Below are positions 17,170-61,950 of a stretch of 64,000 bases of DNA, piece after piece. Position 1 is the first letter of the stretch. Each line of letters opens with the position of its first letter. Source of the stretch: Cephalotus follicularis. Taxonomy: Eukaryota > Streptophyta > Magnoliopsida > Oxalidales > Cephalotaceae. The position numbers were made by a program, and so were the translations under genes. The notes under the pieces were generated by a model. It saw nothing but the letters and a program-made list of their open reading frames with translations, made no database searches and was not told the DNA's origin. The stretch is taken from NCBI GenBank assembly GCA_001972305.1, contig BDDD01000712.1:1-64000 (forward strand), given 5' to 3'.

Positions 17170-17300
17170 CTAATCCAGTCGGCTAGATTTCCTTGGCAGT
17201 CGGCTGGAGTGGACAGTGTGTATTTCAAAATATAGCCGTTGGTGTAGCAGTCGACTGGTTGATCTGGACAGTCGGCTGTTTCATCTTGGCAGTCGGCTGG
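17170..17300. repeat. CAGTCG(G/A)CTG motif array upstream of the hAT TATA
   Basis: Core cytosines of CAGTCGGCTG-like words fall at 17180, 17201, 17252, 17273 and 17294; four are spaced 21 bp or form 21-bp pairs. The array begins about 45 bp upstream of the minus-strand TATA near 17133. The same word recurs in a gypsy solo LTR (26758-28075) and a copia solo LTR (60851-61348). Confidence 0.65.
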
Positions 17301-17535
17301 TATGGGCCAAATGCGGTTCTTGCAGTCCAGTTCTTGCAGTTTGGTTCATACACTCCTATGCGGTCCGGGCTGAGCCGGTTCTTCGGTTCCTAAATCCTTT
17401 AACCGGCCCGGACCACTCTCAAGGTCCGGTTCGGCTCCGGTCCTGCCATGTGGCAAGTGGTCTAGGCCGGTCCAAGGACCTTGCGGGCCGGTCCTGACCG
17501 GTTCACGGGTTGGCCCGGACCACTTGCAACCCTAG

Positions 17536-19359
17536 GTGAGGATATGGGTTGAGGGGAAACATGGTGAGTCCTACTCGAAGCTGCCAAAATATTTGTCTTT
17601 GTTAAAGTCTAAAAACCCAGGTAGCATAGGGGTAATTGAGACAAATGCTATATATGGTAGACATAAACCAATCTTCAAAAGGGTTTTCATTTATGTTAGT
17701 GCAATGAAGAAAGGGTTTTTAGAAGACTATAGGCCCTTTATTGGAGTGGATGGTTGCCACTTAAAGGGTCTCTATGGTGGGATACTCCTTGCTACAGTTT
17801 CAGTTGATGCAAATAATGGCTTGTTTCCACAAGCCCTTGTGGAGGTTGAGGGGGAGACCTATATCAACCGGTGCTTCTTTTTCAAGAACTTAGATGCCTC
17901 AATTGGAACTTCCTCTACATATATACCATGGACCATAATGTCAAACAGATCCAAGGTAACAAATGACTTAATTTTAAAATTTTAAATTACTCCATATATT
18001 TTTATGATTTGCTGACTATTTTTCTAATGTTTATGCAGGGGTTAATTGATGTTGTGAGAGATATTATGCCTGGTACTAAGCACAGGTTTTGTGCCAGGCA
18101 TATGTATGCCAATTTCAAGCAGAAATTCCCTAGTTTGATGATGAGGATAGACTTTTGGAGCATTGTCAGAGCATACAAACAGTTTGATTAGGAGCAAGCA
18201 ATGAAGGAAATGAAGGGACATAATGAAGAAGCATACACTTTTTTGATGGGGAAGCCAACTTCATACAGGTGTAGACGCCTGCACCATCCCATTGCTAAGA
18301 GTGATCACATCACCAAAAACATGAGTGAATCATTTAATCATTAGGTCGGGTAGGTGAGAGATCAACCTTTGTAGACCATGCTAGACAACATCAGGATGAA
18401 GATCATGGTTAGAATCGAGAACAGATATACTAAGGGATTGAAGTGGTTGCAAGAGGGGAAGAAAGTCACTCCATTTGTTTAGAGAAGGATAAACAAGGTT
18501 GTCAAGGATGCCAGGTTTTGCCAATTGCTTCTGGCCAGTTCAGATGAGTACCAAGTAGTGGAGGGAGGGAGGCAATATGCCCTAAACATAGCAAACAAAC
18601 ATTGTAGCTGTGAGGAGTGAACCATAAATGGCTTGCCTTGTAGGCAGGTTGTTTCCTGCATCCCTAGAGCAAGGGCCAGGTTAGAGGATTTACGTGATGA
18701 GTTCTTCAGCATCAAGAAGTATCTGAAGACTTATGAAAATATCATTCACCCATTGCCTGAAGAGAGTTTGGATGCAGCTGATGACCTGGACAAGCTTTAC
18801 CCTCAAACTCATAAAAGGTTAGCTGGGAGGCCAAGAAGGGATAGAAGGAGAGAACCAAATGAAGGAGAGAGACAGAAAAGGTCATCTACTGCCAAGTGTT
18901 ACACTTGCCACCAGTTTGGGCATAATATGAGGGGTTGTCAAAGGGATACCAGGCCAAACAAGGTAAATCATACTAAATTGATACTTTGAATTGTAATACT
19001 GTTGTATTACATTCATCTTCACAAAACAAACACTAATTATTTGTTCTTACTGTATTGTGTAGAGATCATTTGGTGGTGGTGGTGCACCTAGAGCTTCTAT
19101 TGCATCGAGAGCTGCTACTGCACTTGGAACTGCTAATGCTTCTACAAGGACAAGGCCCAAGAAAAGTAGTGGACATGCATCTACATCTGCTACTGCTTCT
19201 GCAACTAATGATGCCACTGCCTTTATTGGTTCAACAACTGGAGCTACCACTGCTTCTACTTCTACTGGATGTGCAAGTGGTGGTTCTGGTGGTGGTGCTC
19301 CTGGTGCTTCTGTTGGGGGTTATGCTACAGCTATGAGGAAGGATGGAGTAGATCTATAG
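17536..19359 (+). pseudogene. MULE (Mutator-like) transposase
   Basis: Exon 1 (17536-17955) carries the start of the MULE domain: KKGFLEDYRPFIGVDGCHLK (first catalytic Asp) and SVDANNGLFPQAL. Exon 2 (18039-18962) gives DVVRDIMPGTKHRFCARH, a SWIM finger remnant (HCSCEE, stop, GLPCRQVVSCI) and a CCHC knuckle (KCYTCHQFGHNMRGC). Exon 3 (19063-19359) is a Gly/Ala/Ser/Thr-rich tail ending at TAG. Splice signals GTAACA/ATGCAG and GTAAAT/GTGTAG fit. In-frame stops (near 18189, 18343, 18371, 18480, 18618) and MSNRSK in place of the usual SDRQK, which loses the second Asp, show it is dead. The N-terminus is missing because hAT DNA replaces it. Confidence 0.88.
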
Positions 19360-19752
19360 TGGAGAATACTGGTGGCTCCTACAAATTTCAGCGGGAGAAC
19401 AACTAGAGATAGGGCAACCCAGTAGTTGTAGATATAGGGCAACCCTAGCTTGATGTGATTTTTTTTGAAACACTAAAGCTTATCTGCAATTGTCTTTTTT
19501 TTTTTTTGTGGTGTAGACCTTAGTGTTTTGGTTAAAAACATGTGGTGCATTGGTTCTTTTTGTTATGTGTCTGATACTTTATTGCTTTTGCTTTGATGTA
19601 AGGGTTGGCATGGATTGTTTTTTTGTTGGCATATGTGTTCCAAATATCAGATGCTGTGTATTTGACTATATATTGGAATGGAAATAAATTGTGGGTTCAA
19701 TTATTAGTGTTTAAGTTTGCAATTGAATGGTGTTTAAAGTGATGCTAGTGGT
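19360..19752. other. 3' flank of the MULE transposase
   Basis: A T-rich non-coding stretch with no ORF. It probably holds the transposase 3' untranslated region, since the GRF-finger gene follows on the opposite strand in the usual MULE layout. Confidence 0.4.
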
Positions 19753-19908
19753 TGTCATGTGTGAGTGTGTTTATTTTGACTATTGGGTGTGGTTATTTGG
19801 AATTAAAATGAGCACAAAATATAGCAGACACAATTTCCATTACATTGAAAATCAAAGGTTCATTACATAGATAGTGCTTCAACAGATTCTCTAATGCTTA
19901 AAAATAAG

Positions 19909-20277
19909 TCATAACACTAGCACAAGCACAGCAAAAACATTACACAAGATGCTTGTAAGCATCATCACATTAAGGATCCCTATATCACTCTCAATTCCAC
20001 TAATCCTTCTAAGCAGCATGTGAATTTCTTCTCTCAATACATTTGTATTCACTTTATCCCCATAGATTTCATCATACTCAATAGGTTCCCTTTTATGTAC
20101 TTCACCCTCACCAGTAAGTATGCACCAACCGAACCACCCACACTTGCGATCCTCACAGAAATAATACAACTTGTTTCGATTCTCATCTGACTCTAAGATC
20201 TTAACCGCAGTTCGTTTTTCACATAGGCATCTCTTGTTCAAATATCTCAGCTCATCATTGACACTTGCATAAGACAT
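19909..20277 (-). CDS. GRF-type zinc-finger protein with C-terminal membrane segment, MULE-associated
   Basis: The ORF encodes 122 residues from ATG 20277. Cys17, Cys19, Cys41 and Cys46 with the CGWFGW stretch form a GRF zinc finger (CLCEKRTAV, YYFCEDRKCGWFGWC). A predicted coiled coil follows (NTNVLREEIHMLLRRISGIE, about residues 77-97), then a hydrophobic tail (LTSILCNVFAVLVLVL, about 107-122) that could span a membrane. GRF fingers bind single-stranded or structured nucleic acid in other proteins. Small plant proteins with this finger-coil-tail layout are often found beside MULE transposases, and the opposite-strand position behind the MULE gene agrees. It is open throughout; whether it is expressed is unknown. 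Confidence 0.72.
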   Translation of the reverse strand: MSYASVNDELRYLNKRCLCEKRTAVKILESDENRNKLYYFCEDRKCGWFGWCILTGEGEVHKREPIEYDEIYGDKVNTNVLREEIHMLLRRISGIESDIGILNVMMLTSILCNVFAVLVLVL

Positions 20278-20908
20278 TTTTTCTGGTTGAAAAATTCACA
20301 AACATTTCATCGAACACGTTAGGCTTATTTGAATTTTTTTTTCCTTCACATCAACGTGCAACCTACCCAAACTCAACAAATCTTGCAGGCAAGCATATGT
20401 GATCAAATGATAGAGAAACATAAAGCAAAAAATGTGCAACATAAATCTCTGAAGCATATTCGAATCTAACATCCCAAAATTAGGGTAAAAGAAATCCAAT
20501 GACAAGTTTATCCTAAAAAAGAAGAAGAAGAAGAACAAGGTTGATAGAGCATACCTGAGTTTAGGTTTAAGAGAATCTTGGCCAAAAACACGATTGTAAT
20601 AGTCCTAGAAGCATATATGAGAGAGAGGCAAGAGGGGGTTAACTCATGTTGCAAAAGTGAGCTTGCTAATGGGTTTTTTTAATGTTTAATGACGTGGCCC
20701 GTGTTCTTTCTACAAGGGTAATCCGGGTTATTTCTAAATGTTTAATAACATGGCCTGATAATTTTTTAACGGCAGACTCACAGACGGGGTTATGTGTTAC
20801 ACGCGACCAAACGTTAGGAGATATTTAATAAATTTGAAACTAGAGAGGGGTTTTTAATAGCGTGTTTAATATATATGCTTATCATAGTATATAAATTATA
20901 CACTTTTC

Positions 20909-21200
20909 GCTTTAATAATTGGACCTACGGATCGTATTTCATCAATCCAATCATTGAATTAAATGCTTTACATGTATAGATCTAGCTAGCCGAATTTCAA
21001 ATTAATTGAAAATATATAACTATTTCATATTTTCTTAAAAAATTCAACTGTTTTATAATTTTCTCATTTAATATAAAAACATAACTTATTCGATGAATAA
21101 TCTAGAGATATCCAAATAACTTAAAAATTGACATAAATACTTTATATAAGTAGAAAATCTAATCCAACAGTTGTATTGATGAAATATGATCCGTTGGTCC
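20909..21200. mobile_element. MITE copy 1 (~290 bp, inverted ends)
   Basis: The left end CTACGGATCGTATTTCATCAAT is mirrored by ATTGATGAAATATGATCCG at the right end. The body is AT-rich without coding potential. The right terminus is cut at the duplication joint at 21200, so its last bases are missing compared with copy 2. Confidence 0.7.
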
Positions 21201-21338
21201 TGTCATGTGTAAGTATGTTTACTTTGACAGTTGGGTGTGGTTATTTGGAGTTAAAATGAGCAAAAAAGATGGCAAACACAATTTCCATTGTATTGAAAAT
21301 CAAAGGTTCATTACAGTGATAGTGCTTCAACAAATTCT

Positions 21339-21754
21339 CTAATGCTTAAAAATAAGTCCTAACACTAACACAAGCACAACAAAAACATTACACAAGATGC
21401 TTGTAAGCATCATCACTTTAAGGATCCCTATATCACTCTCAATTCCACTAATCCTTCTAAGCATCATTTGAATTTCTTCTCTCAATACATTTGTATTCAC
21501 TTTGTCCCCACAGTTTTCATCATACTCAATAGGTTCCCTTTTATGTACTTCACCCTCACCAGTAGGCATGCACCAACCCAACCACCCACCACCCACCACC
21601 CACACTTGCGATCCTCACAGCAATAGTACAACTTGTTTTGATTCTTATCCGACTCTAAGATCTTAATCGCAGCTCGTTTTCCACATAGGCATCTCTTGTT
21701 CAAATATTTCAGCTCATCATTGACACTTGCATAAGACATTTTTTCTGGTTGCAA
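21339..21754 (-). pseudogene. GRF-type zinc-finger protein, second copy, frameshifted
   Basis: This is the tandem duplicate of the ORF at 19909. It starts at ATG 21754 with the same MSYASVNDEL and zinc-finger cysteines (CLCGKRAAI, YYCCEDRKCGW). Expansion of a CCACCCA-type microsatellite (about 21580-21600) adds 14 bases and shifts the frame within the finger's last part. The downstream coil and hydrophobic tail (SILCNVFVVLVLVLGLIF) lie in another frame. One copy has thus decayed while the other stayed open. Confidence 0.8.
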
Positions 21755-22743: not shown

Positions 22744-22744
22744 A

Positions 22745-23620: not shown

Positions 23621-23869
23621 CTTTTAAGGAGGGGAGAATGTAACGACTCGAATGCTCTTTCTCTACTATTGAACACTGTTCATGCATATACTATACCGTA
23701 TTGTATTGTATTGTATTGAACTGTATTGTACCGTATTGATATGATGTATTCCTATACCTATTGTTATTGTATTGATTATATGCATGTATAGTCGGGAATT
23801 TTGGGCTGAGTTTCGGAGAATTGGCCGAATTGACTATATAAGTCAATTCTCTTGTCTTTTCCTCTCATT

Positions 23870-23902
<33 letters not shown>

Positions 23903-24354
23903 ACCCTTCTCTTCCTCTCCCTAGCTGAGCAACTTTGCTCCATCCCCCTGGCAGCTCTTGGACTGGTTCTTCTTCAACAAATAACAACTGCAAGTGGTGG
24001 CTTCTCTCCTTGAACAAGACAACAGCTAGTTCTTGGGGGTTTCAGCAGATTGTTGATTGGAACCTCAACTTTTGAAGCTCCAATTATAGGCAGGACTTCT
24101 ATACTGGTATTGCCTATTGCTTAATTTATTTAATTGCGTGATTGATTGAATGATTGAATGATTGTATCGCATTGAAATGTGAAACTAGGGTTTTTATTGA
24201 TTCCCTTGATCATGCTGATCTAGGAAGATTGAAACTGATATTGGAAGGTTGTAACAAGTCATACTAACCTTAAAAGACCAATTTTAACCATTGGTTTTCA
24301 AAGAATGGGTATTAAATGGATTTTGACTTGAGATTTGCTGGTTTTCTGCACAAA

Positions 24355-24720
24355 AATCGACGCTGCCCAGCAAAGACATCGATCCCCAGCCCATGGAAAT
24401 CGATATCTTTCGCTTTAGAGTGCAGCATCCTTGATTCCGCAGCAAAGACAAAGACATCGATGTCTTTGAAAGACATCGACATCTTTGCCTTGAGATGTCT
24501 TATCCCCAGAGACGACATCGATGTTGAACATCGATGCGCATTCCTAGGCTATTTTTATTGAAACGCGTCGACGCCTTTGTCCAAAGACATCGACGTCTTC
24601 GACCAGAACTCTACAGATACAGAGAAAGACATCGATGTCTTGCAAAGACGTCGATGTCCTTCTACAGTTTTAAAGGAATGCCCTGATACGCATCGATGTC
24701 TTTGGCCAAGGACATCGATG
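24355..24720. repeat. ACATCGATGT motif array, 13 units (gypsy A copy 2)
   Basis: Core cytosines of ATCGAT/ATCGAC words lie at 24358, 24380, 24401, 24458, 24477, 24519, 24532, 24569, 24591, 24633, 24652, 24694 and 24716. Gaps are 22, 21, 57, 19, 42, 13, 37, 22, 42, 19, 42 and 22, so most are near 21 or 42. DNA between the words differs. The array lies about 500 bp after the TATA-like box of this LTR. Confidence 0.75.
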
Positions 24721-25352
24721 CCTTTCAGGCTGAATGAAACTTTTAGCTGTTTTAAAGTTAGTTTTCAACTCCTTTTCACATTGCCGCTTGACCGGAGCCT
24801 CACTTGAGGTATTCAAGCATTTGAAACACAGTTTTACATGGTTTTCAAAGATTGAATTGATAAATTGATAAAGTGATAAGTTGAGCCATAGGCGATGACC
24901 CAGTGACTTTCTTTGACCGGATATATGTTCTTTCCTATCTCGTTATCTAATTGTCACCGTCTATTGGCTATTGATTGATTGATTAATTGATTGAGTCATA
25001 AGTGTTGTGAGTCTAAGTTTGGAACGTTGGACGCACATTCCCATTTCTCCATTAGACATCACCACTTATCGACATTGTATTGACATTGTACTGACATATT
25101 GATTGTATTGTATGGATCCTATAGAGCGACCTTATGTGACACCCCGTGTCACATTTACGAAGCTGATTTGCAAAACACGTGAGCGTAGAAATTTCGTGAG
25201 TGGCATTTTAGTAATTAAAATTATTGTTGTTCTTATTATAATAATATTATTAGTTAGAAAAAAAAAAGAAAAAAAAGGGGACACTAGGCGTCTCTACAAG
25301 GCGACTGGCACCTTAACAAAAAAAAATAAAACAAAGGCACGTGCGCATAGCG

Positions 25353-28243
25353 TGTCACACCCCGTTATTACATTCACGTACAATGGACCAGCATATGTGG
25401 TGATATCAGAAATAAGCATAATATTCCAGCACAATTCATAATTAAATGGCGGAAGCATTCGATAAGCCGGCATATATATATTACAAACCGTCCGCACGCA
25501 TCCCATACTACGTGCGGTTAAAACCAATAATATCCTTAATTAAGAGGAAACACAACACAACGAGGTATGAACCGTTCAAATACAAATCTCATTAAAACAT
25601 CATAATTAATCAACCTTAAATCAAAATAAGAAGCTCTCCAAGCTTCAGCAGCAGTCTCCAATAGTCCTTGCTTAATCTGAAATGGTAGGGTTTAGCCGTT
25701 GTCCTCACTTGGCTAAGTAGAATGATAATGTATGATAAGGAGTATATGAATGCAACATGTATGACAGTTTATATCAAAATAACATTTGAATGGGCCAATA
25801 TATAAGCAATCATGCCAAGTGGCCATAAACAATCCATATGCAAGAATACCGCACAAGGGTACAATCAATCAGTCCAGTAGTTTGTCCGAAGACCAGTATT
25901 GGGCTCAAGACGCCGGTAACCCCTAGCCTACGTCGAGCTACCTAGCTATTACCCCAACTCCGCTGATGATAGGAGGCAAACAGTACCACCGGCATTTAGC
26001 GGGTAGCAACAATCAGTTCTGCAATGCAGACAGTGGGTGGATGCCCTAGCCAACTCCTGGCACGTAGGACCGCCTCCATAGTCAGTGATGTCTCCTATCA
26101 CTCGACTACGGCAGTAACATAGACAATCAATTCAATCAGTGCAATCCAATGTAATATTACATATGTATATAATATGCAATATGAAAATTGTTTTCTTTAG
26201 AAATGTTTACAATTCAGTAATCGTACCTCTCATACGAGAAACGATCTCAGTAACAGTAGTGGTTTCCAATTCGGAAACAAAACAGTAGGCAGTAAAATAG
26301 TAGGTGATAAATCAGTAGCTTCTTGTAAATGATAGAACCAAAACAGTAGGTACCTCTCATATAGGAGGAAAATCAGAAGTTCCATTTAACAATAAGTGTT
26401 CTTTTAAAAAGGATAGTAAATATCAAATTTTGGGTTCAAGTCCCATAAATGGTTTTCAATCTTTAAACTATCAGTAGTAGTGGTGTTAATAGCACCAAAC
26501 AGTATATACACTAACATAAGTAGTATATGCAGCAACATTAAATCAAAACAGTAGTTCTTGTAAAATGGTAATTTTCATTGAAGGTGGTATTTAAACCATA
26601 ATTTTGTGCATAACTCGTTCGATCGATGCAATACCAGTAATAAAGATGTTAAATAACATCAAACAGTGTGTACTATCTGGTGGTAACATGTACAATTCAA
26701 TAACAATATCAAACAGTAACAATTCAATCAATGTATGAATTTCCTGCCCAGAACAGTCGACTGCCATCAAGAACCAGTCGACTGTTGGGTTGAGTAGTCG
26801 ACTGCTTTGGGTGGCAGTCGAATGCCTCTGCCCAGAAAATGCAGAAATGGCAAGTCATGAAATGTCAATTCAATTCCCAATCAATTCAATACATGCAATT
26901 ATGCAGAAAATAAACATACATAATATGCATACTCATATCTTCCATGACATATCATTACCCCTACCTCAATTCGCTATCCCAAGATCAATTGAATATGATA
27001 TTTCTCTTTGAGTTCCAAGTCACTTTCACCGATCACTCTTTCAATTCCAGTAGTGTTGATCTATGCATGTTTGTTTGTGAACATATGCATCAATAACAGT
27101 AGGTTTCAATAACCTTAACACTAGCTTAATCACTAGCTCATTGGGTTTGTCATTACTTTTACCATTTCACCACTTTTCCTTTTGAACTCTATGTCAACAA
27201 TTATTAAATCTCGAATTCATTGATTTTATCTTGTTTGACAGTAGATATATACATGAAATCAGTATGTATATATATTCTAATCAATTATAATCATTATCTA
27301 GTTACATCAAGAATTACTAGAACTCTTAAGTCTCTAGTTCCATTTAAAACACTCTTCATATTCCAAATAATTTACTCAATCCATCTACTGATTTGCATGT
27401 TTCAACAGTAGGTATATACATATTTAGGAATCATTAAACATATCCTAGCATTAACAACAATTATAATTCATTCTAGAGGCTATATCACCAATTCCACTTG
27501 ATTTCATTATTACTTCCCATTTCAATTCTAAAGATTGTTATTCTAATCCATTAACAGTAGATATACAAAATTCCTAGTCACATTTTATCAACATAACAAC
27601 AAGAATTTCGGATCAAAGACTTACCAAGAGTCTAAAGCCTCAAAGTCCTCCCTTTTGAGCTTTCTAACACATCCAATGCAAGCCCTCAATAATCCTTAGC
27701 AATTCCTCACTCCTCTCTGTGTTTCTAACACTCATAACACCATTCACTCAGCTGATAAAAGCCTTGAATTCACCAGATTTCCTACCTACTCACATGCACT
27801 CACATTCCACTCTTTCTTTCCACCTACATTGCTTGTCCTCTTTCACTTTCCCCTCATAATTTATCAATTTATGGTTGTAGGTATGCAGAGAACATGCAAA
27901 CACTCCACTTTTGCATGTTCTGGCAGGTGGTGAGACACAAGTGCCATTCCCACCTGTCATTCTTGTCTTGCACATGCCAGGAGATCTGTCCAGGCAAAAC
28001 CAGTCGACTGGCTTTAGTGGGCAGTCGACTGCCTTCATCACGTGGCAAACAGTCGACTGTTGCCCTGTGGCAGTCGGCTGTTTGGCCTAAATTAGGGTTT
28101 CTAATCTTTGATACATCACCAATTGCACATTTAATCATCCCCAATAATTACCAATCATAGAAATTAGCACAATTGGATAAATAACTCAATTAAAATATAT
28201 ATTAAATTTCAAATTTGGATCAATTGAAGTTGCGGTTATTACA
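25353..28243 (-). mobile_element. Solo LTR C (gypsy type, 2.9 kb), nested in solo LTR B
   Basis: The ends are TGTCACACCCCG and GGTTATTACA, with an exact TAGCG duplication on both sides (25348-25352 and 28244-28248). Read on the minus strand it starts TGTAATAACCGCAACTTC, the same first ten bases as solo LTR D (36648-38441), so it is probably in minus orientation. A splice-donor-like GGTAAGTC on the minus strand follows a likely transcript start region near 27640. No coding sequence was seen. Confidence 0.8.
26750..28085. repeat. CAGTCGACTG motif clusters in solo LTR C
   Basis: Cluster 1 has core cytosines at 26758, 26779, 26799 and 26819 (gaps 21, 20, 20). Cluster 2 has them at 28005, 28026, 28054 and 28075 (gaps 21, 28, 21). 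The stretch between the clusters has no such words. The words match those in the hAT (17180) and the copia solo LTR (60851). Confidence 0.7.
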
Positions 28244-30420
28244 TAGCGCCCGTGCCATTGATGAAATAGAGAGAGACAAGAGATGAGACAGAGAGATCGG
28301 GAGAGAGATGCAGAGAGCGGGAGAGATGTCGGACCGGCGACCGGGAAGAGGCGGCGAGCATCCCTACAGCTTCTCCACCACCGGTAACCCCCTCCTTCTC
28401 CTTCTCTCTCCTCTTTTATTCTTTTCTTCCCCCTACGTCTTGGCCTCTGCCATCGTCGTCCGCCACTTTTGGCATCGCGGATGGGTGCGGTCATGGTCTA
28501 GAAGACCACCTCTTCCCATTTCGATGGCTGTTGAGGCGTCATTTGGCCAAAACCGGCCGGATTCTAGCGGTTGAGTCAACTAATGAGTTGACTCGCTGCC
28601 GCCTCTGCCGCCACTTTTGGCGGTGATTCCCGGCGAGTCTCGGTCACCAACGCGTAGACCGGACCTTGTGGAGGCCAGGGGTAGTGAGACCGGAGCAATG
28701 GCGTCTCGGCCGGAGCTCTGGCGCGGCGGCAGCCGCCGATTCTTGGCTAGTCTTGGGCGGAGACGTGTAGACCAGGTCGTTTTGTAACTTATTTGTGAAG
28801 TGGCTATATTTGTTGGATGGCCGATGAGTTGACTCAGTGAGTCAACTCACTGCCGGCGGTGGCTGCCTAATTCCGGGCGAGTCACAGTGAGTTTCGATCA
28901 GTAATGTGTTGACCAGCAATTATGGAGGCTCGATTTTGGGTGTCATCAGAACTTTGGCACGTTGTCCGGAGTTCCGATTACGATAGATTATGTTTCCTAT
29001 GAATACGTCGTAACGATACGTGCTATGTTAATGCAGCGTGAAGGATGGTAGAGTTTCGAAACGATGACGAGAACCGATGACCTGTTCAAAGCTTAACGGG
29101 GTTAGTCCGTGGAAGTATCGGCTATGATATTGTGAGTAGAACATCTCTTTCCTTTATTTTATTTGATTTTGAAATTCGTTAATGATTGCTATGTGTCATT
29201 ATTGTGATTCGTAACTATCATTTGATTTCTTGATAATTTGATTTGGAATTGATTCCCATACTTGTTAATGGCCTTTGTTGCTTGATTTTATCATACGATG
29301 TGGCTTGTTATATGATTCCATAATGGTTTCTTGGAATCCTTTATTTACATTCTCGATTGAACTCTGATAGGACTTGTTAATTGTCTGTTGTGCAATTGAG
29401 TCTATAATCGCTTGCTTTGGACCTTTTATTGAAATCGATTCCTTAATCGCTTGCGTTGAGCCCTCTATTGATATTCCGATTGAATGCTCATATTGATAGG
29501 ACACGTTTGTTTTTCGGTAATCCTTTGAGTATTCTCGTTTGAACTTCTACTTTGATATGAGACCTTGTGATTATATATTCATTTCACCTCGTGACATCGT
29601 ATCCGCATTGGCTCCTACGGGTGTATATATTGTTTCTATTGCTACTGTTATATTCATTCTAACTCCGTATCGTCTTGTTCAAGTTTTGTTGTGAGCTATG
29701 TGCTCTTTTGTGGTTCTATCATGAGATGGCTATTGAGGGCCGGATTTGTTGAGTTTGATTTGTTTCCGCATTCTTATATTTGAGTTTTGTTGTTGATGCC
29801 TTTGAGCAATTCTTTATTTGAGAGTCATGTTGTTTTCATATGTGATCTTGGTTGGGATTTGTATCTCGGTTGTCTTCTATTAACGTATTCATGATTGTGA
29901 TGCGATTCCGAGCGGTTATGTGCTCGATGCTCTTGGTGACTTGGTCGCCTTCTCACACTTGTGACATTGTGACTTGTTATGTTATACCGTGTTATACTCT
30001 GATGCTGGGTACCGGTATTATGGTTCTTCTAGTCCAAGGAGAGGTACATGTTCAACGCTCAATTCTACTTAGCAGGCCCATTGGTCTATGATGGGGTGTT
30101 AGGTAGGAACTGCCCCCGGATTCCATATCTGGATCTGCAGCATACTATTGTCTATGATGGTATGCTGAGTGTGAGTGCAACAGAGCTACTCCATTACCCT
30201 CCTTTTGGACTGTGTTTGGTTACTGATGTATATATATATTGCACGCGGTCCCTCGGATGAGGTTGAGTGTGCGTGCGGGTTTTTCGACGATGGTTGGGTC
30301 CGTGCACTGATCATGCCGGCCCCTCGTTCGAGGCAGAGGTAGGCACTCTACACCGGTGTATGATGGATGATGATCACATCCTGTAGCCTTACCTAGTATT
30401 ATTGCTGCAGCGGTTATGTT

Positions 30421-30513
30421 ATGACGCCATGTGATTTGGCGGGGATATGATATGACGCCATGTGATTTGGCGGGGATATGATATGACGCCATGTGATTTG
30501 GCGGGGATATGAG
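30421..30513. repeat. 31-bp tandem repeat, 3 copies
   Basis: Three near-identical units of ATGACGCCATGTGATTTGGC plus GGGGATATGAT follow one another within solo LTR B. The identity of the copies suggests a recent slippage event. Confidence 0.9.
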
Positions 30514-32823
30514 ACAGTGATAGGATTGGTACCAGCATCCCCTTATATTTGTTGTTTATGATTCTTTGGGCACATATTACATTCTTGATATTGATATTGT
30601 CATGATCGTAACTTTTAGCTTGATATGCAGATACTCCATATTGTTGTGACCTTCATTTATTTGATTATGGTCTTGAGTATGATATTTGTTCAGCGGACTT
30701 CCTTTTTGAGTCTCTGGCTATTTCATTGGAGTCTTGCTATTGTGCCTTGCATGATTCACTTTATCTTATTGATTCTATGTTCTGTGTATAGTTGACTTTG
30801 AGCGTTCTTTTATGGAGCCATGATAGTATTACATTCTCTTTAATCACTGATTCTACCCTATGTATGTTTATATTCTTGATCATTGAGATTGTCCTATGGA
30901 TTCATATGCTAATTGTATTGTTGAGTTCAAGCGGTTCTTTTATGTATCGAGATCTCTTTCTCAGATTTGTTTTATACTTGTGATTCTTATTTACATCGTG
31001 GACTTCATTTATACTTTGGATTTCGTTTACACATCGAGATCTTGATATCCCTTTGTGATTTCGATATTCCTTTGTGATCTCGATATCCCTTTCTGGTCTC
31101 GATGTCCTTTGTGAATCACGATTTGTTATACTATCCTTTTGGATCTTGATTTCATTTATTGCTGTAGATTACATTACATTCTACTTTGAGCTTGTGTTGT
31201 TTCTTCCTTGATTCGATATACATTATGGGAGATGTTTTCTTTGGTTCTACTCACTTAGTCATTTGGATTAACCCCCTCTCTTTTCTTTTCCTTCCAGATA
31301 GAGGTTAGATGGTGGACCACGGAGGCAGGGCATGCTACTAGGGTTTCAACGCATGCATAGCATAACTACATCAACATTTAATTTAGCATTTACTTATGTT
31401 TCTATATAATGGTTTTTCTTTTATGGTTTTGCTTTTAAATGGCTGAGCCATTACATATTTGTTTTGCATGTTTGGGTAAAATGGTTGAGGCTGAGCCCAA
31501 CCTATGTTTACTGCTTTAAAAATTGTGGTTTACTGAGGGCTGAGCCCATTTTAAAACTGTTGATTCCTCCTTCGGGAGTGTGTATATAAACTGTGTTTTT
31601 CTTTACAGGGGGCATAGTCCTATAAACGGATACTACATGCCCGATTTTCATAAAAATTCAAGAATTAAATTTTTTTTCAAAGTTTTGGAAACGTTTAACT
31701 TTTTGATTTCCTAGTTTAAAGTGAGTTTTATAGAAACCATGTGGTGACTTCCGAAAGGAAGTTGTCATGTGGAACGTCATATCCGTTCTCAGTAGGATAT
31801 CGGTTGTTTTAAGGAATGGGTGTGACACCTTATGATTCGTGTCGGCATGTTAGGTTGTTGACTCTGTCCACCTATTCTGTCGATCGTTTAATTTATTGTA
31901 TTGTATTGACCTGCTGATGAACAGTACTGTAATGATTGATGATTGTTGCTCCCTTGAGGGACGTAGCTCCCTGACGGTATAGTAGCTCCCTTGGTTGTAG
32001 ATCATCGAGATGGTATTGACCCACCATAGGCTGGAAGATCTACGAGTTCCAGACCTGATTAGTCTGAGAACAGTAGATAGATCTCCCACCCTTTTTGAAG
32101 GACTACCTTCCGTGGGATTGATCATTACCATTGACTGACATTGTATTGACCCGAGGTCTCATGCTCTATAAAATATGATTGATTGATTGGGTGTTTTATA
32201 CACCACCACTAAGTGTCTGCCATTGATTGATTGTTATAGATCTTATTCATATGCTCTGTTATGGGCCAGTGTCATATGGATGGTCAGATCGCCAATTGTA
32301 TTCATGCATTTGCCATATCATGCATTGATAACGTACACTGCACATTGATATTGCATAGATTGTCACCGATATTGCACATTGTACATGCATACATGCTGAA
32401 TGAGGTTTCTGCTTAGCCTTGTGGCTAACCCTATCCTTCGGGGTGGGGCTGTGTTGTACATTTTGTGAGCGGCATAGGTAAGGCAGCAGGTAGCAGTGGA
32501 CAAAAGGATTGAAGATTCGGTGCGACCGCATGATCGTTATGGATCTGACAGAGTTCATCTTGTAATATTGTATTGAAGAGTTTAATAAATGTATTGAAAT
32601 GAAATGCTTGGCATAGTATTATAACAGAATTTGTACTGTACTGTATTGCATGGATGGTTTATTGCAATGTTTACAAGAGAACTGTATTATATCTTCCGCA
32701 TAATGCCATGTATTGTAAAGTTTTAACTTTTCCACATTTTTATATTGCTAGTCTCGACCATTGTATTGTATTTTGGATTGAGAGTAATGCCACGTGTCTG
32801 TCCTTCGGGCGCGGGGTGTTACA

Positions 32824-36012: not shown

Positions 36013-36647
36013 TTTCATATGCGTTTGTGTTATTGATGATTCCCTTTTGATGATTTCCAAAAAGGGGGAGTGTGCTTAATATTATGTCTGATTAAGGGGG
36101 AGTGTGAAAAAGGGGAGTATGTATTTCTTGAATGTTTGTTTAAATCTTTATATGTTTGATTAAGGGTATGTTTGATTAAGGGGGAGTTTTGTTTTGTTTT
36201 TGATGTTTTTGAGTTTCTAAATATTTAGAGTTTTATCATATTAAGGGTATTGGTATTTTATGCATAGGTTGTATTTACATTTTTTGTGTTACTTCTTGCA
36301 CAAGTTATATGCTTATGTGTTTTACTTTCTAATTTAAGTTTATATACTTTACACCCTTTTATTGTAAATGTTTTGTCATCATCAAAAAGGGAGAGATTGT
36401 TGACATTTATATGTTACAATCCTTGTTTTGATGATTACAAAACACCTAATGTGTTTGTTTGATGTGACGGAATCATTATCCAAGTTAACTTGTATTGTAA
36501 GAAAGCTAAAACTTTCATATCATAACTATTGGCGTCAACGACTATGATATAGGAGTCAACGTGCTGGGCTCGCATACATGTTCTGGGTTAGCAAGATGAT
36601 TTACGTCAATGCTATTCATTATCCATGTCAACGTGATGGGAACTTAC

Positions 36648-38441
36648 TGTAACGCCCCCGATCCGAGTTCACTTTATGCTCAAAGCGAGCTACGAAGATT
36701 CAGTGCGTTACGTGGGGGTGAAGCCTTTAATCCTTTAACAATCTCACTAATTGCTAATATTTATCCAATTTCTCATAATCTCATATATTGTTTGCAACTT
36801 TTGATACTAAACTTTAAAATGTCATATTCTCATCATAAACCATGACGATCATAGTCAATATCATCATGATACATTTCATAGCGGAAAAATATTAAATTAT
36901 TACATCAAAAGTAGTTTATACAAAATATTAATGTATAACATAATTTCCTTTCCAAAACTTCTTTTATGAACTTCCTTTAAAGCTCGAAATATCTTCGTTC
37001 ATCCATTCCCTAGAAAATTTTATTTAAAAAAAAAACAAAAGATTGAAAAGAATGAGCTTAAATAACCCAGTAAGGGTTTCAAAACAAACATTTCATCACA
37101 TTCATTCTTTTCTATTCATATCTCCTGAAACAGAACATTTCATTTCTTTTTTTGATCATATCTCAGGAATCAGAACATTTCATAAATAACTAAGGGGTTG
37201 TATAAACTTAAATAACCAAACTCAAACCTTTTGCTTCACCGGGGCATTGTGCACTCTCCGATTACTATCCTTACATGACATGCATGTCCGTGAGCACTCT
37301 CCGCTCATTTAATCCTTTTCGGATTAATCTCCTTTGGATCACAATCCAGGAGTTGTTCATCTTAGTTTATTAACTTTTTATAAAAAATCATTTCTTAATA
37401 CGAGTGATAAGCTCAAGGTATCCAAAAAAATAAATTCGTACAACATTCGTAAAACTGAATTTACATAGAGCAACATAAAAACAGTAAAATTATAGTAGAC
37501 ATTTCAACAATTTCAGAATGATAAAATCAAAATTTTCACTAAGAAATAACAACAGAATATGAGCAGTAATTTTTAACATATAATTTCATAAAAAATTGGT
37601 AGAATTTTGAAATACATAAAACATAATAATTTGTTGCATAATTTCCAGAAATAACATAAATACTTTGTCATAAAAAAAATATAGAATAAAATACTTTGGA
37701 AAAGTGACTAGGAATCATTACTTTGCTTTAATCTCCTTCTCTCCTTTTCTACACTGAAGTAATTTCTACACTAAAATATCAACAAAATTCTCCTGCTTCT
37801 CTCTTTTTCTTTCACTTTTTCTCAGTAAATTTTGGCAAAAGTCACCTCCGTATTTATAGGAGAGGAACATTAGTCTGTAAGATTTTACTCGTGAGTCACC
37901 GTTTACGCCGCCCATGTGTTAAAATTCTCTTCCTCAGATTAAACGATACTTTGCCTCTTTTATCTTAAAATAATAACGCTTGGTAAAATATCTCAATTCC
38001 TTCATCCGGTTGATGACAAGTGTCCAAAATTAATATAATTAACTCACAAAATGACAAAAAACGAGGTAAGCGTCGGCGCTTTCAGGCTTTGTTCTTTAAA
38101 GAGCGTCGACGCTTTAACCTCAAAGCGCTGCCGCTTTTACACTAAGCGTCACCGGTTGAGCACATTTAACAAAGGAAATAAGGCTTAAAAGCGTCGCCGC
38201 TTTCTCCACAGCGCTATAACAAACCGTCGACGCTTCGGTTAATAAGTTTGGTGTGTTTTGGGGTACAAAAAATTAGTCGACGCTTTGTATATACTGAAGA
38301 CTAACCATCAACGCTTTAAAATTAGATAGTCGACACTTTCAACGCTACAAAACACAAAACATACGCACAACACACCATACAACACTTAGAACAACCATAT
38401 TTTCATAAACAATAACTTCAACAAAAATTCTGGTTATTACA
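36648..38441 (-). mobile_element. Solo LTR D (gypsy type, 1.79 kb)
   Basis: The ends are TGTAACGCCCCCGATCC and TCTGGTTATTACA. Flanks are CTTAC on the left and CTTAT on the right, an almost exact 5-bp duplication. On the minus strand a TATA box (CCTATAAATACGG) lies near 37850, so the LTR is in minus orientation. It starts with the same TGTAATAACC as solo LTR C. Confidence 0.8.
38068..38340. repeat. GCGTCGACGCTT motif array in solo LTR D
   Basis: Words GCGTCGGCGCTT, GCGTCGACGCTT, GCGCTGCCGCTT, GCGTCGCCGC and relatives have core positions near 38074, 38107, 38129, 38150, 38195, 38215, 38228, 38278, 38309 and 38331. Gaps of 20-22 are mixed with about 33 and 45-50, so phasing is weaker than in the other arrays. 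It lies about 220 bp upstream of the minus-strand TATA. Confidence 0.6.
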
Positions 38442-39499
38442 CTTATGATTTACGTCAACGTCATGAGGAAAGACGTCAACATCAAAAGGTGATGGAGACT
38501 TGAGCGTCAACGCAGAAAACAAGTGGAGCCAACACCTTGTCTATAGACGTCAACGTCATTTCAAGACGTCAACGAACTGGTGCACATTTGGGACAGTAAG
38601 TTTGGACATTAACGCGAAGATATTATGGAGTCAACTCAAATGATATTAGCGTCAATGCTATGGATGTGCGTCTGAAGAAAGTCCTGAAGTATTAAAGCAA
38701 AGAACCACATGAGTTAACGCATAAGGGGATAGACGTCAACACCATTCGTAAACGTCAACGCCAATGATAGCTAAACACAGAATCTGCAAATTTTGAAGGT
38801 GCTGAAATGGTGATTCTTTCCCTGAATAGCTTCAACGGCTCTCTGATGAGTCCCTAAACTCTAGCAACGGCTACATTCAGATGAAGACTATAAATAGAGG
38901 CTCAATCCATGAAGAAATCATCAAGCAAGAAAGAGCAAGCCAAACAACAAAGAAAAGCATTCTAGTCTTCATATTTTTCAAGAGTTCTTGTGCTATCTTC
39001 AAGACTTTCTTTTTTTATCCTTATATTTGTTATACATCAGCCTTTATAGAGGTTACAGATATACAACAAACACTTCAAATACTTTTTGTGTACCCAAGGT
39101 CATTATTACCTTTCTCAAAGTTAGGATTTGGCTTCAAAAATCCGAGTTAGAATTTAGCTCGCAAAAATTCAAGTTTGGATTCATCTTGTAAAAATCCAGA
39201 ATCGCTGTTTGTGATCGGGAGATTACACTCTACTGGAACCTCAAGTTGCGGCTTGGGAGAGTGGACGTAGGCACGGTTTGTCGAACAACTATAAACTTGT
39301 TTGCATCTCTCTTCCCTTACTCTTTTAATTTTTTGCAAGCTATTTTTGTTTTTACCCACTTGCACTGATACGACGAACAAGCCTAGAACCTATCGCTGAT
39401 GAGAGCCTGATTCAAAAAATGGTTACGTTTGACTGTAAATATGTATAACAAAATTTCTTCGACAATACGAAAAACAATTTAATAAAAAATTGTGACATA

Positions 39500-43028: not shown

Positions 43029-43044
43029 ATCTCCCACTTGACCC

Positions 43045-48532: not shown

Positions 48533-48657
48533 AAAATTTAATATCAGAGGTTGTTTATAGGTCAAACTCTCACTAAATCAAGCAATGATTAATTATCCTT
48601 TAAGTGCCTTAATGAAAAAATTCCAAAATTTAGCCAAAGTATAATTTATTGTTTTAG

Positions 48658-48945
48658 GCATCGACGCTTCATGCCTAAGCGTCGACAGTTTGCCACAAAC
48701 CGTCAATGCTCAATACTTCATTCAATGCTTAGGTAAGAGCCAACGCTTACTAAAAACATCAACGCTTAAACCTATAGCGTCGACGTTTTAAACAAAACCA
48801 TCGACGCTTAGTGCCTAAGCGTCGACAGTTTTCCACATACCGTCAACGCTTAACACAACCTTTAACGGTAAAATACAAGTCACCTGGATAAGCGTCAACA
48901 TTTTAACCAAAAGCATTGACGCTTAAACTTGCTGTTCATCGACAC
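48658..48945. repeat. GCGTCGACGCTT motif array, at least 10 units at ~21 bp
   Basis: Core positions 48662, 48683, 48704, 48723, 48741, 48760, 48781, 48802, 48823 and 48844 have nine successive gaps of 18-21 bp (21, 21, 19, 18, 19, 21, 21, 21, 21). Further words lie near 48896, 48917 and 48940. The first and last thirds share a larger duplicated block (AAGCGTCGACAGTT); the middle intervals differ in sequence. Confidence 0.8.
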
Positions 48946-49222: not shown

Positions 49223-51520
49223 TATTGGGAATGGTAGTCCATCCCTTAGTAGAGAATCCGGAATAAGGTGCTTAAAGGACCAAACAAAAATTTTATGGTA
49301 TATAAAACAACAGAAGCATATCCTCTAACCACCAAAGAACAAGTCCAATTCATGAAATGCAAGTCACAAGGATCACCACATCATAAGCATAATTGAATTG
49401 GTATCACTCATACATGCAAAAGTGATACACTACATGGAAACATAGAGGGGGACAAGGAGTTCATACCGTATGGTGATGGCTCCTTCATTCTTTTCTGGTT
49501 CAAGCTTGCATAGACTCCTTCGGTGTTCTCCTCTAAGTAGATCTCCTACTGCTCCGAGCAACAGGTTTCTCAAGCCAGCAACAAACGGGGGAAAAAATAG
49601 CCTTTGTTCTCTCTCTCTCTATGAATGTCGAACACTACACTCTCTCACTATGCTCACAAAGGATGCATTGATGTTGACAAAGATTGTCAATAACAATCCA
49701 CCCTAGGTTTGCTCCAAGCTTGGTGAAAAAATCAGAGAAGGGATTGCTCTATGTGTGTATCTCATTCAGCCTCTCTATATTGCCCAGCAAAAATGACTCT
49801 TACTTATGCCAGCAAAATTCACTCTCTCTTGGACATCGTATCCACTCCTCCAACAAGTGATTATGCCCCTTCCTCTAAGGAATCATGAAACCATGATCCC
49901 AACATGCTCCCCATCATGCATAGATGGGAGAAAAACACTGGGATTGGGAGAGAGAAGATGTGAACACGTTTTGTGTCCGATTAGCGAACCCACGTTGTGC
50001 ACTAATCGTCGAAACTTTCTGCAAAAGCGTCGACACTTTGACATAGTTTAGCGTTAACACTTACACCAAGGGCGTTGACGCTTAAGCAGGGTTTGGCGTC
50101 GACGCTTTCTCCAAGAGCATCGAAGCTGAAAACACATGGACATATTCACATATCTACAATGAGTCCAACTCATTCTTGTATGAGACATGTTTACTTCTCC
50201 AAGAAGTTAGCCACTACATCATATAAATAGGTCCTACCCATTCAAATGATGTTGCTAGTCCCTTTGGAATATTGATTCAGTAATATCAAACAAATGTGTC
50301 TCCACAAATTCTAAGATCCACCCAACCGATATTTGATTTTATAAATTTCACCAAGAATTAAATATGTCCAACATATTTATGAAGAAATCATTATCGTTCA
50401 GGGACCTTTTAAAATCTTGGTTAGAATCGGTGGTGTTTATAAATTATCAAAATACCCCTAGGGTTCGGTTATGCCACTCTAAATAGTCCCAGACTTATTT
50501 GAAAACTCCCGGACTAATATCCAATATTATCCAGATGAAAAATTAATCTAATCAATTTTCTCATAATTTATTACACACCTCCATAACGTGAGACTTTCTA
50601 AGTTGTCCATTTGCGTGTACTATAATCCTTTGTCATACCTGGCCCCGATTGAGGTCTAGGGTAAGGATACGTGTCAACCCTAGATAATACATCAATTCCT
50701 AAAATATCTGATCATTACTAGGATCTTTGGTAGACTCTCCAAAAATCTAATTTCTAGTCCACCTTAACCTTTGCCAATGATTTCATAAGTCCAAAGTACA
50801 ATCAGACCATAATAGGGCCGATCACCTTCGCTCAGGTGTGACAATCCCATATTGCGCACTTGCTTATATTCATATAGATTAGATCATACCCAAAGACCAC
50901 CCGATTGCCAGCCCTGCACAAGAACTAGGTAAGGTGGAGATCAAAGCATAACCGTCTCCATACAACATAGAGCAGTTGCTCAAGTCTAAGGATCAGACGA
51001 GTTCGAAAACTCGCTAAGCGACTAGCACTTATACACAACCGCAACAAGTAGGAGTCACTACTGACATGAAAATAGTGACTATCCAAATAGTGTCTCGTAT
51101 GCGAATCCAGTTCAGTTTACACGCTCCCAGCGCGCACCCCGTATTTGCCCTAGTGTCACAACACTGATGGTCATGAGAGAATCCATCCTCCAATTCTAAA
51201 AGCAGGCAACATACACGCAAGTCTATCCGGTTCACTAATGCCCACAAAGTGAACCTATGACTTGGAACTAATTTGACATAAGGAAGGTAGCCAATCTCTC
51301 TACCTCCATGCTTGGCATCCAACTTTATATCAGGGCATGACAAGTGTAAGTAGGTAATTATTATACAACTTCAATTATGTGATAAAACACAAGTGATATT
51401 TCCATAAATAATATAAGCAAAATAGCACATGTCATATATCTGGAAAAAGATTGTTTATATACATAGATAGGTTTGATACAAAAACCTAACCGATGGCTTG
51501 TCGGGTCACCCTATCTAACA
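49223..51520 (-). repeat. 5' LTR of the Tork-type copia
   Basis: It is 2,298 bp long. Its outer end is ATCTAACA; its inner end reads TATTGGGAATGG, so the terminal TG has mutated to TA relative to the 3' LTR. It aligns with 40806-43028 throughout. Confidence 0.9.
50005..50130. repeat. GCGTCGACGCTT motif array, 6 units (Tork 5' LTR)
   Basis: Cores lie at 50010, 50031, 50055, 50076, 50100 and 50121, with gaps 21, 24, 21, 24 and 21. Compared with the other LTR it has one extra 21-bp unit at the start and two extra units (45 bp) at the end. Confidence 0.75.
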
Positions 51521-52609: not shown

Positions 52610-52704
52610 GCGTCGACGGTATTATTGAAAGCATCGACGCTTAAATTTAAAGTGCTGATGGGCTATTTTTAAGCGTTCACGCTTTAAGTTTGCATGCTCG
52701 ACAC
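52610..52704. repeat. Orphan GCGTCGACGCTT motif array, 5 units at 21 bp
   Basis: Cores at 52614, 52635, 52656, 52677 and 52699 have gaps 21, 21, 21 and 22. The array lies between the CACTA remnant and a copia LTR. Its last words (GCTCGACACCAT) resemble the end of the Tork leader array (CATCGACACCAT, 48940), so it may be a remnant of a related element; no LTR border was found for it. Confidence 0.7.
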
Positions 52705-55151: not shown

Positions 55152-55153
55152 AG

Positions 55154-60240: not shown

Positions 60241-60267
60241 CTTAGGCTAAAGGTCTTCGTGGCTTGA

Positions 60268-60283
60268 GGGCCAAGTGGGAGAT
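60268..60283 (+). other. Polypurine tract of copia T2
   Basis: GGGCCAAGTGGGAGAT lies directly before the 3' LTR start at 60284, the usual place for plus-strand priming. Confidence 0.8.
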
Positions 60284-60681
60284 TGTTAGAGTAGGGGTGT
60301 CCCTGCTTGCCACTAGGTGACTCTGCATAAATATATATGTATGTATGAAATGCACTCCTTAACTGGAGATATCTCTTTAAGCCGCGGGGTGGCTGCATGT
60401 GTGTATATTACACTCTCTATTTATACAATCTGAATTCCTTTTCGTGTTTTATAGTGCATATTCAATCAACAATGGCAACCCGCTATATGTATATCCCAAA
60501 CCATCTTAAATGGATCGGGTGATCACCATGTCATCCGAGTACACATATAGTGCCCTGTCGTACGAGGGGTTGGATCTCATGCCTGAGAGGTTATGAGAAT
60601 GATATCCTTACTCCCTTCTGATAGAACGTTCCAAGTCATAGGTTTACTTTCTTAGGGCAATAGATGAACCGCAAAGACTTG

Positions 60682-61950
60682 TGTTAGCCTTTGCCATCCC
60701 GGTTAATTACGTTTACATATGTTATTTTGATGATTAACAAACATAGATTACTTGTATGCATAATTCTTTAAGTTATAACTTCATATACTCACTTGATTTT
60801 ATGTCCAAAGTTGTGCCAAGAACATTTATGCAGATACAGGCCAATCCAGCCGACTGGTGAGCAATCCAGTCGACTGCCCAAGGTTAAGTAGTCGACTCCC
60901 AGAGAATGTAGTCGACTGTTTCTTCAACCAAACTCAGAATCTGCAGGAACACCAATCCAGTCGACTACCACAGGGGTCCAGTCAACTGCCAGGCAAATCC
61001 AGTCGACTGCCACAGGGCATCAGTCGGCTGCCATGGGTACAAAATCAGGCAGTAGCTTCTATATCTTTTCAACACCCAATCCAGCCGACTGAAGCAGGGC
61101 ACCAGTCGACTGCCAGAGGATCCAGTCGACTGCCAGGGAATCCAGTCGACTGTTTTCAATTGTGCAAAATCAGGCAGTAGCTTTTGTAATCTCCAAATTC
61201 AGCTCAACAGCCGACTGGAACAGAGCATCCAGTCGACTGCCCGCCAGACCAGTCGACTGCCTACAGGATCCAGCCGACTGCCCACTCCCAACGGCTATAT
61301 TCAAATGTACGCGCCATCAAACCAGCCGACTACCGTACAAATCCAGCCGACTGGATTTGTAAAAGACAGTTAAAAATAGATCCGTTGGAGGCTCAACTAT
61401 AAGAGGAAAATTAGAGCTCTTGCACAAGTGATCAAGCATTCAAGTCTCATATTCTCTCAAGTTATCTCAAGTACTATACCAAGCTTTCAAACAATCAAAA
61501 GAGATCAATCCAAAGCAATCCTACACATTACAAAGCTTTATTCTTACATTTCATATACACTTGTAGCTTTGTTTAAAGTGAGCTAAAATTGTAAAACAAA
61601 TTCCTACGAATTTTTAACATTCAAACTACTACTTTCACACATACAAGAGAGGCTGTCTCTTGTATTGCTCGGTTGGAGCAAAGTTGTAATTCGCTTGGTT
61701 GGAGCGAAAGTTGTTGGAGCTCGATTGGAGTTCCAAGCCAGGATTGGGGCATACCTAGTGAATACTCAAGGGGAGGCCTTGGGGAGTGGACGTAGGCGGT
61801 TTGCCGAACCACTATATATCCGTTTGCAATCTCTAAACCCTACACTCTTTACATTTCCGTAATTGTGTGTTTGTGTTTATTGAATTATTTTGTGGTATAA
61901 TCGCTAGTAATTTTTATAAGTCTATTCACCCCCCCTCTAGACTTCCTACA
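60682..61950 (+). mobile_element. Solo LTR (SIRE-like copia, 1.27 kb) inside the T2 3' LTR
   Basis: The ends are TGTTAGCCTTTGCCATCC and CTCTAGACTTCCTACA. Flanks ACTTG and ACTCG form a 5-bp duplication with one change. A TATA-like box (ACTATAAGAGGA) lies at about 61397. The CACCCCCCCTCTAGACTTCC end is typical of SIRE-lineage copia LTRs. No internal region remains. More than a third of the LTR is a motif array. Confidence 0.82.
60846..61353. repeat. CAGTCGACTG motif array, 18 units phased at 20-22 bp
   Basis: Core cytosines lie at 60851, 60871, 60893, 60913, 60962, 60983, 61004, 61025, 61086, 61107, 61127, 61147, 61212, 61234, 61254, 61275, 61327 and 61348. Thirteen of seventeen gaps are 20-22 bp; the others are 49, 61, 65 and 52. 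Between the words the sequence varies, apart from a twice-used CAAAATCAGGCAGTAGCTT. The array ends about 50 bp upstream of the TATA-like box. Confidence 0.88.

Follow-up and report, generated by a model that had tools for sequence, protein, structure and literature searches.

A 64,000-nucleotide stretch of the Cephalotus follicularis genome (contig BDDD01000712.1; hereafter, the window) contains arrays of short words, typically built around TCGA, in transposable elements of unrelated classes, namely Sirevirus, other copia-type and gypsy-type long terminal repeats (LTRs), a hAT-like element and a CACTA-type transposon. The words are over-represented and common to these unrelated carriers, and the sharing is firm. 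In one case, the promoter of the hAT-like element, alignment traces the sharing to homology with a Sirevirus-type LTR that extends from the array through the leader. The arrays are probably clustered cis-regulatory binding sites of the kind described as RM boxes in Sireviruses, with the shared words stemming in part from promoter modules that move between elements. All counts and comparisons below come from this single window.

Enrichment, sharing and spacing of the words

The dyad-symmetric palindromic forms of the words are CAGTCGACTG, GCGTCGACGC and ACATCGATGT. An earlier note on this DNA listed nine sites, and the kinds of words it named are present at all nine. The carriers are denoted here as Sirevirus S1, Sirevirus-type S2, gypsy A1 and A2 (two LTRs of one family), gypsy-type C, D and E, and the Angela LTRs and leader. 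When pairs 19-22 bp apart are counted against 100 dinucleotide shuffles, TCGA yields 29 pairs, compared to a mean of 1.48 (standard deviation 1.18, maximum 5). These pairs come from gypsy A2 (6), S2 (5), gypsy C (4), the Angela leader (3), gypsy A1, E, the Angela 5'LTR and the CACTA stretch (2 each, one of the two CACTA pairs being the array itself) and unrelated simple repeats (3); hAT, gypsy D and S1 contribute none, and removal of the arrays of gypsy A2, S2, gypsy C and Angela leaves 9 pairs. TCGA was compared with 13 of the 15 other palindromic four-mers, TCAA and TTGA, and a separate comparison took in the full set of 256 four-mers. In the latter, CGAC, GTCG and TCGA occupy ranks 1-3 at this spacing once microsatellites are masked, and without masking only GAGA, AGAG and TCTC outrank them; in the former, CCGG pairs are also elevated (7 versus 0.7), but few in number. 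Among the 64 palindromic six-mers, GTCGAC is at the top, with 8 pairs versus 0.08 expected. A motif-free search for runs of four or more 8-mers spaced 18-24 bp from one another, which tolerated a single mismatch and discarded low-complexity chains, identifies seven chains. Five are of the CAGTCGAC type, with S2 contributing four and gypsy C the fifth; the remaining two are CAACGCTT in the Angela leader and CCTTTGTG within the TCGA array of E. This search detects no chain in gypsy A, gypsy D, hAT, S1 or the Angela LTR, whose words are fewer, more varied or less regular. A 45-bp repeat at 13906-14060, unrelated to the arrays, by itself yields TCGA pairs at 21 and 24 bp and is a false positive for a simple scan.

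The claim that a DNA transposon, copia and gypsy-type LTRs share words is borne out by a cross-carrier test, in which each region is searched with a word from another carrier (at least 8/10 match, 14 region-word tests, 200 shuffles each, p floor 0.005). Such words are found in hAT (5), gypsy C (9), gypsy D (5), the Angela 5'LTR (4), the Angela leader (7) and the CACTA stretch (3), where shuffles predict 0.1-0.7 (p 0.005 each), and the larger part of the S1 LTR contains 3 (p 0.005). Gypsy A1, scored with the word of its own family, has one word only (p 0.77, 200 shuffles). Four of the six control tests, on the MULE-like stretch, S1 pol and positions 1-9000 (two words tried), return no words, and the other control region, the Angela2 5'LTR, returns 2 words (p 0.045) and 1 word (p 0.48). 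At a match of at least 7/10 to the consensus of each family, the word lists comprise 18 words in S2, 13 in S1, 12 in gypsy A2, 9 in D, 8 in C and 6 and 9 in the Angela LTR and leader, respectively, with fewer than eight in gypsy A1, hAT (5), E (4 TCGA) and CACTA (3); the list of gaps includes two overlapping weak hits.

The spacing of about 21 bp, which had been attributed to all the arrays, is firm in most carriers, not all. Cross-carrier words form pairs at 19-22 bp in hAT (3), gypsy C (5), the Angela leader (4), the Angela 5'LTR (1) and CACTA (1), all with p 0.005, and none in gypsy D, gypsy A1 and the larger S1 part. De novo six-mer pairs at this spacing reach p 0.005 in S2, hAT, gypsy A2 and the larger S1 part, and are at p 0.29 in gypsy D, 0.10 in the Angela LTR and 0.22 in the smaller S1 part. 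Among the word gaps shorter than 60 bp, 46 of 72 are 19-22 bp long, with the mode at 21. The 24 gaps longer than 24 bp (a set from which the weak hAT hit at 17207 was dropped, with a few long gaps merged or left out and gypsy A1 added) show a period of 10.5 bp (R 0.39, p 0.027) but none of 21 bp (R 0.10, p 0.80), a post hoc and borderline result that is compatible with sites on one face of the helix.

The promoter of the hAT-like element

The promoter of the hAT-like element (16985..17310, minus strand) resembles that of a Sirevirus LTR and consists of five words (at 17176, 17197, 17248, 17269 and 17290), a AACGGCTATATT motif, a TATA region and a leader. It lies between a terminal and subterminal region with the end TAGGGTTGCAAGTGG (17310..17534, minus strand) and an N-terminal open reading frame (ORF; 16212..16961, minus strand, an ORF call). 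The description of its words as TCGA/TCAA-type holds for one of the five, which contains TCGA; the other four have TCGG. A blastn search aligns 16985-17278, in inverted orientation, with 61250-61545 of S2 (70.5% over 302 bp, E 1e-20). S2 is a Sirevirus-type solo LTR (TGTTAGCC..CCTACA; 60682..61950, plus strand) with a target-site duplication (TSD) ACTTG/ACTCG, inserted in the Angela2 3'LTR; its array of 18 CAGYCGACTG words (60847..61353, plus strand) ends about 45 bp upstream of CTATAAG, and it is assigned to the Sirevirus type by a polyC signal near 61925 and by U5 similarity to S1 (94 bp, 77%, E 6e-13). In this alignment four of the words stay in register, and the match takes in the AACGGCTATATT motif, a TTAAAAATAGATC stretch and the TATA region and then follows the leader, stopping roughly 25 bp short of the ATG. 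With the words taken out, the hAT promoter-leader still scores 96 against S2, versus 20.2 +- 2.9 for shuffles (z 26), and the word-free promoter gives z between -1.5 and 0.3 against gypsy D, Angela, gypsy C, gypsy A2 and the MULE-like stretch. Thus, as judged from the alignment, the hAT-like promoter is shown to be homologous to a Sirevirus-type LTR from the array through the leader. Convergence can be ruled out for this array because the homology continues past the words through the TATA region and the leader. Insertion of an intact solo LTR in the hAT-like element is unsupported, given that only the segment from array to leader aligns and hAT-like terminal sequence lies directly upstream.

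S1 and S2 have promoter-leader sequence in common (z 5.2, with three colinear blast segments), so that this promoter type is one resident in Sireviruses, and capture by the hAT-like element is therefore the simpler direction. Hence the hAT-like element probably took its promoter, together with the array, from a Sirevirus-type LTR, although the direction is one that we infer. The case would be a concrete example of one transposon class carrying the promoter of another, array included. The label hAT is weakly supported: a single end, TAGGGTTGCAAG, is present, and a search for the partner end and an 8-bp TSD found neither. The ORF has no match in Pfam, NCBIfam, PDB or protein-database searches, and its structure model (mean pLDDT 35.7) is uninformative. 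It contains a putative BED-like pattern, which profile search does not support.

The words appear to be better preserved than their surroundings. In the S2-hAT alignment, 36 of 40 word positions, 41 of 65 spacer positions and 138 of 186 remaining positions are identical (Fisher p 0.003 for words versus spacers, 0.04 for words versus the rest), values that come from one array pair and in which consensus-based picking of words inflates word identity. Comparison of the spacers bears on the possibility that unrelated transposons separately evolved the same words to exploit one family of host DNA-binding factors, as activators or as an escape route. The words are shared and the spacers mostly are not: of 45 between-array pairs, two of which lie within one family, 3 have p <= 0.01 (S2-gypsy C, hAT-Angela LTR and gypsy A2-Angela LTR), and a second test finds 1 of 8 (S2-gypsy C, p 0.007). 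In addition, when hAT, S1 and E are set aside, the six carriers assumed to be independent can be sorted into three arm classes (p 0.0009; p 0.012 with five carriers), a post hoc result, and heat-response elements have evolved repeatedly in Brassicaceae COPIA LTRs (PMC5059998). Nevertheless, the hAT case is one of descent, S2 and gypsy C have a common 31-bp unit with 28 identities, and a single factor would need to accept several arm classes. Moreover, spacer mismatch is no sign of independence because the same best-pair test misses the homologous S2-hAT pair (p 0.56). Such separate evolution is rather unlikely as the general explanation. A common array block in gypsy D, Angela and the CACTA-type intron has no spacer support either (p 0.11-0.97), in a weak test that misses S2-hAT, too. 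The suggestion of the earlier note that cassettes were exchanged or the words converged thus stands for exchange in one pair, the hAT-like element and S2, and for convergence in no pair; outside this pair, the shared words may reflect either process.

Within arrays, spacers are alike in 4 of 10 cases (S2, p 0.005; gypsy A2, 0.000, where the best pair consists of neighbours 13 bp apart; Angela LTR, 0.005; Angela leader, 0.03). The two Angela LTRs are identical at 2009 of 2217 aligned sites, and the only gaps of at least 10 bp between them, 21 and 45 bp, are both inside the array; the 3'LTR (40806-43031) has 3 words (41580-41634) and the 5'LTR has 6, so that array length changes after, or during, insertion. 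CpG sites differ between these LTRs in 45 of 144 cases and other sites in 163 of 2073, that is, about 4 times more often at CpG. The similar spacers and whole-unit indels are what would be expected if the arrays were functionless products of short-unit slippage. The best spacer pair, however, is at chance level in 6 of 10 arrays, and slippage alone cannot put the same word in different elements or favour one core, which makes neutral minisatellite growth very improbable.

Placement, possible function and relation to known systems

Under the binding-site interpretation, the words, mostly dyad-symmetric with a CpG-containing TCGA centre and separated in most carriers by about 21 bp, or two helix turns, would most likely be bound by a dimeric or multimeric host DNA-binding protein, and the binding would change transcription or silencing of the element. 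The arrays lengthen and shorten by whole units, with words seemingly better kept than spacers, and the same words would have reached unrelated elements at least partly with promoter modules moving between transposons. The placement of the arrays is consistent with such a role. In S1, S2, D and the hAT-like promoter the array is upstream of the TATA box (array and TATA offsets from the LTR start are 135-569 and 697 in S1, 164-670 and 715 in S2, 107-373 and 585 in D), and elsewhere arrays occupy a leader or a presumed intron. The observed/expected CpG ratio is 1.26-1.68 in the arrays of gypsy A2, D, Angela and S1, versus 0.48-0.94 in the rest of the LTR.

Several observations weigh against this interpretation. 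The array of the Angela LTR is located late (offset 1395-1515 of 2296) and the leader array still further downstream; there is no clear TATA box in the gypsy A or C LTRs; and the CpG ratio is barely raised in S2 (0.63 versus 0.57) and gypsy C (0.70-0.73 versus about 0.55). The phase is unsupported in gypsy D and A1 and weak in the Angela LTR. The alike spacers in 4 of 10 arrays imply that part of the growth is plain unit duplication. With regard to capture, the word-free hAT promoter compared with S1 alone gives z 3.0, which is within the null maximum.

Folding of the arrays is relevant to another scenario, in which the palindromes act as folded RNA, for small-RNA production and silencing or for processing, rather than as protein-binding DNA. 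The arrays of S2 (z -7.4), gypsy A2 (-10.1), the Angela leader (-7.2) and gypsy C (-4.2 and -6.5) fold below shuffles, and three non-array LTR stretches do not (z -0.7, 0.2 and 1.7). An excess of small RNAs maps to palindrome clusters of maize Sireviruses (Bousios 2016, as described in PMC10760457). Yet any array of perfect palindromes folds well, z does not go beyond -1.8 to -2.2 for the arrays of D, S1, hAT and the Angela LTR, the centre of the S1 words lacks palindromy, and an RNA signal requires neither the two-turn spacing nor the position upstream of TATA, so that an RNA hairpin signal is improbable. The words might also be targets of a transposon-encoded anti-silencing protein, like those of VANC in VANDAL elements, whose motif arrays are dense, non-coding and gain or lose tandem units (PMC5735166), resembling the Angela LTR pair. 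The carriers, however, belong to different classes, the VANC21 motif has no palindromic symmetry and its copies all point the same way (PMC5735166), and 0 of 25 ORF queries against Pfam suggest such a protein, in a scan of part of the ORFs that did not search for VANC by name. This explanation is very improbable.

A related kind of array is already in print. The earlier note knew of no name for such a system, but palindromic RM boxes upstream of TATA in Sirevirus LTRs have been published (Bousios et al. 2010, PMC2829016). As that paper describes them, RM boxes are palindromes present at least 8 times, in a stretch of the upstream LTR that stops just short of TATA; they form CpG islands and also occur outside LTRs, upstream of env. 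They are reportedly confined to Sireviruses and missing from classic copia elements. The signature CGG-CCG is present in 12 of 13 cases, and two published words have a TCGA centre, CGGTCGACCG of Vitis and ACAATCGATTGT of Tnd-1, the latter also without the signature. Bousios and colleagues did not find a single binding factor for the boxes (PMC2829016). The arrays in the window resemble them in part, with mostly palindromic words, eight or more copies in some carriers, TATA just downstream in several LTRs and raised CpG in four arrays. They differ from the published boxes in the TCGA core with variable arms, mostly without CGG-CCG and often about 21 bp apart, and in their carriers, which include gypsy-type and Angela LTRs, a hAT-like element and a CACTA-type intron; the Angela, gypsy A, C, D and E, hAT-like and CACTA-type carriers all fall outside the Sireviruses.

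Three other systems show partial similarity. Both copia elements and Helitrons carry the maize palindrome CACCGGACNNNGTCCGGTG (Martin et al. 2023, PMC10760457) and, as here, one palindrome is common to a retrotransposon superfamily and a DNA transposon class; unlike here, it is treated as an RNA structure, and the cited passages describe no phased array or promoter capture. The COPIA heat-response clusters are likewise transcription factor sites gained repeatedly in LTRs, partly via duplication of proto-sites, but the factor (HSFA2) is known, the motif is different and only copia families are involved (PMC5059998). The VANC target arrays are dense short motifs in non-coding regions that grow and shrink as tandem repeats, but the binder is encoded by the element, and a single family and a directional motif, YAGTATTAY, are involved (PMC5735166). 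A literature search at the level of titles and abstracts, largely without preprints and subscription papers, found no TCGA-core arrays common to gypsy, copia and hAT or CACTA elements, and a scan of viral contigs for the array and for Sirevirus reverse transcriptase (RT) gave no confirmed match. What is new here is the TCGA core, the gypsy-type, Angela and CACTA-type carriers and the captured array-promoter module.

In a broader version, gypsy, Sirevirus, Angela-type copia, hAT-like and CACTA-type elements would share TCGA-core palindromes read by one host protein family and gained through capture and convergence, an access code to host transcription passing between selfish elements; this we consider speculative and, on balance, unlikely. 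If such arrays are indeed common to gypsy, Angela and DNA transposons within a single genome, the words could serve as bait for finding the protein. The CAGCCGAC variant includes a DRE/CRT core (RCCGAC), and a W-box core (TTGAC) is present in the S1 words; no factor is named from either match. PMC12786077 cites an Arabidopsis copia LTR that is activated by WRKY.

Carriers, nesting and other features of the window

The window is transposon-dense, plant-type DNA with LTR retrotransposons, a CACTA-type piece, a MULE-like ORF (Pfam MULE, E 0.096, under the family cut-off), a hAT-like piece and a leucine-rich repeat gene fragment. The S1 3'LTR (36397..39365, plus strand), split by D, contains ACGTCAACGT words at 36532-36634 and 38452-38761 and a TATA box at 38888. 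The element has an RT ORF at 34031-35473 and three AGGGGGAG tracts upstream of the 3'LTR and is called a Sirevirus from these multiple tracts; a polyC signal was looked for in the LTR and not found. The TCAA core noted in this LTR is present in 12 of the 13 words, with TTAA in one, but these words form a separate, directional class whose centre is not palindromic. Their origin as decayed TCGA palindromes is ruled out because none of the 13 reads TTGA. The gypsy-type solo LTR D (TGTAATAACC..GGCGTTACA; 36648..38441, minus strand), with unphased GCGTCGACGC words at 38070-38336 and CTATAAATA at 37858, is inserted within the S1 word array (TSD CTTAC/CTTAT).

S1 adjoins the gypsy A2 3'LTR (23639..32823, plus strand), which is split by E and carries a ACATCGATGT array at 24354-24721; a polypurine tract and a Ty3-type RT ORF (22783-23355, RVT_1) directly upstream assign family A to gypsy. 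The A1 5'LTR (11120..12958, plus strand), followed by the primer-binding site TGGTATCAGAG, has a weak array: the four TCGA sites at 11802-11850 are present, with just one word at 7/10. Element E (25135..31827, no strand assigned; TSD CCTTA), inside the A2 3'LTR, has its own TCTCGATATCC array with a 19-bp period at 31034-31114 and holds the solo LTR C (25353..28243, minus strand; TSD TAGCG), which has two CAGTCGACTG clusters, 28001-28080 and 26754-26824. The assignment of C, D and E to gypsy is presumptive, from gypsy-like end sequences alone. There are three nested insertions in LTRs (D in S1, E in A2, S2 in Angela2), too few to judge array-targeted insertion.

The Angela/BARE-like copia element, a presumptive label based on motif resemblance and RVT_2, has a 5'LTR (49226..51520, minus strand; TSD GTGAG in the element sense) with its six words at 50006-50126 and nine GCGTCGACGC-type words in the leader (48658..48849, minus strand). 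Beside the leader array, 48166-48540 is an inverted repeat of about 385 bp (80%), possibly a foldback or miniature inverted-repeat transposable element insertion. The element is inserted, with a TSD, in a CACTA-type transposon on the minus strand (DUF4218 at 51617-51949, E 1.2e-9; DUF4216 at 40147-40440, E 1.4e-5, under the cut-off), and Angela2 comes next after CACTA. Beside the DUF4218 exon, the presumed intron holds three GCGTCGACGC-type words, two with TCGA (52610..52682, minus strand), which the earlier note did not list.

Other repeats in the window include a long CT/GA-rich inverted repeat at 9719-11042 (83% over 326 bp), each arm of which has periods of 54-58 bp, a GC-rich 68-bp minisatellite of about 12 copies at 14197-15023 with open frames on the plus strand, and two tandem direct copies of about 1.45 kb each, 91% identical, at 19753-22732.

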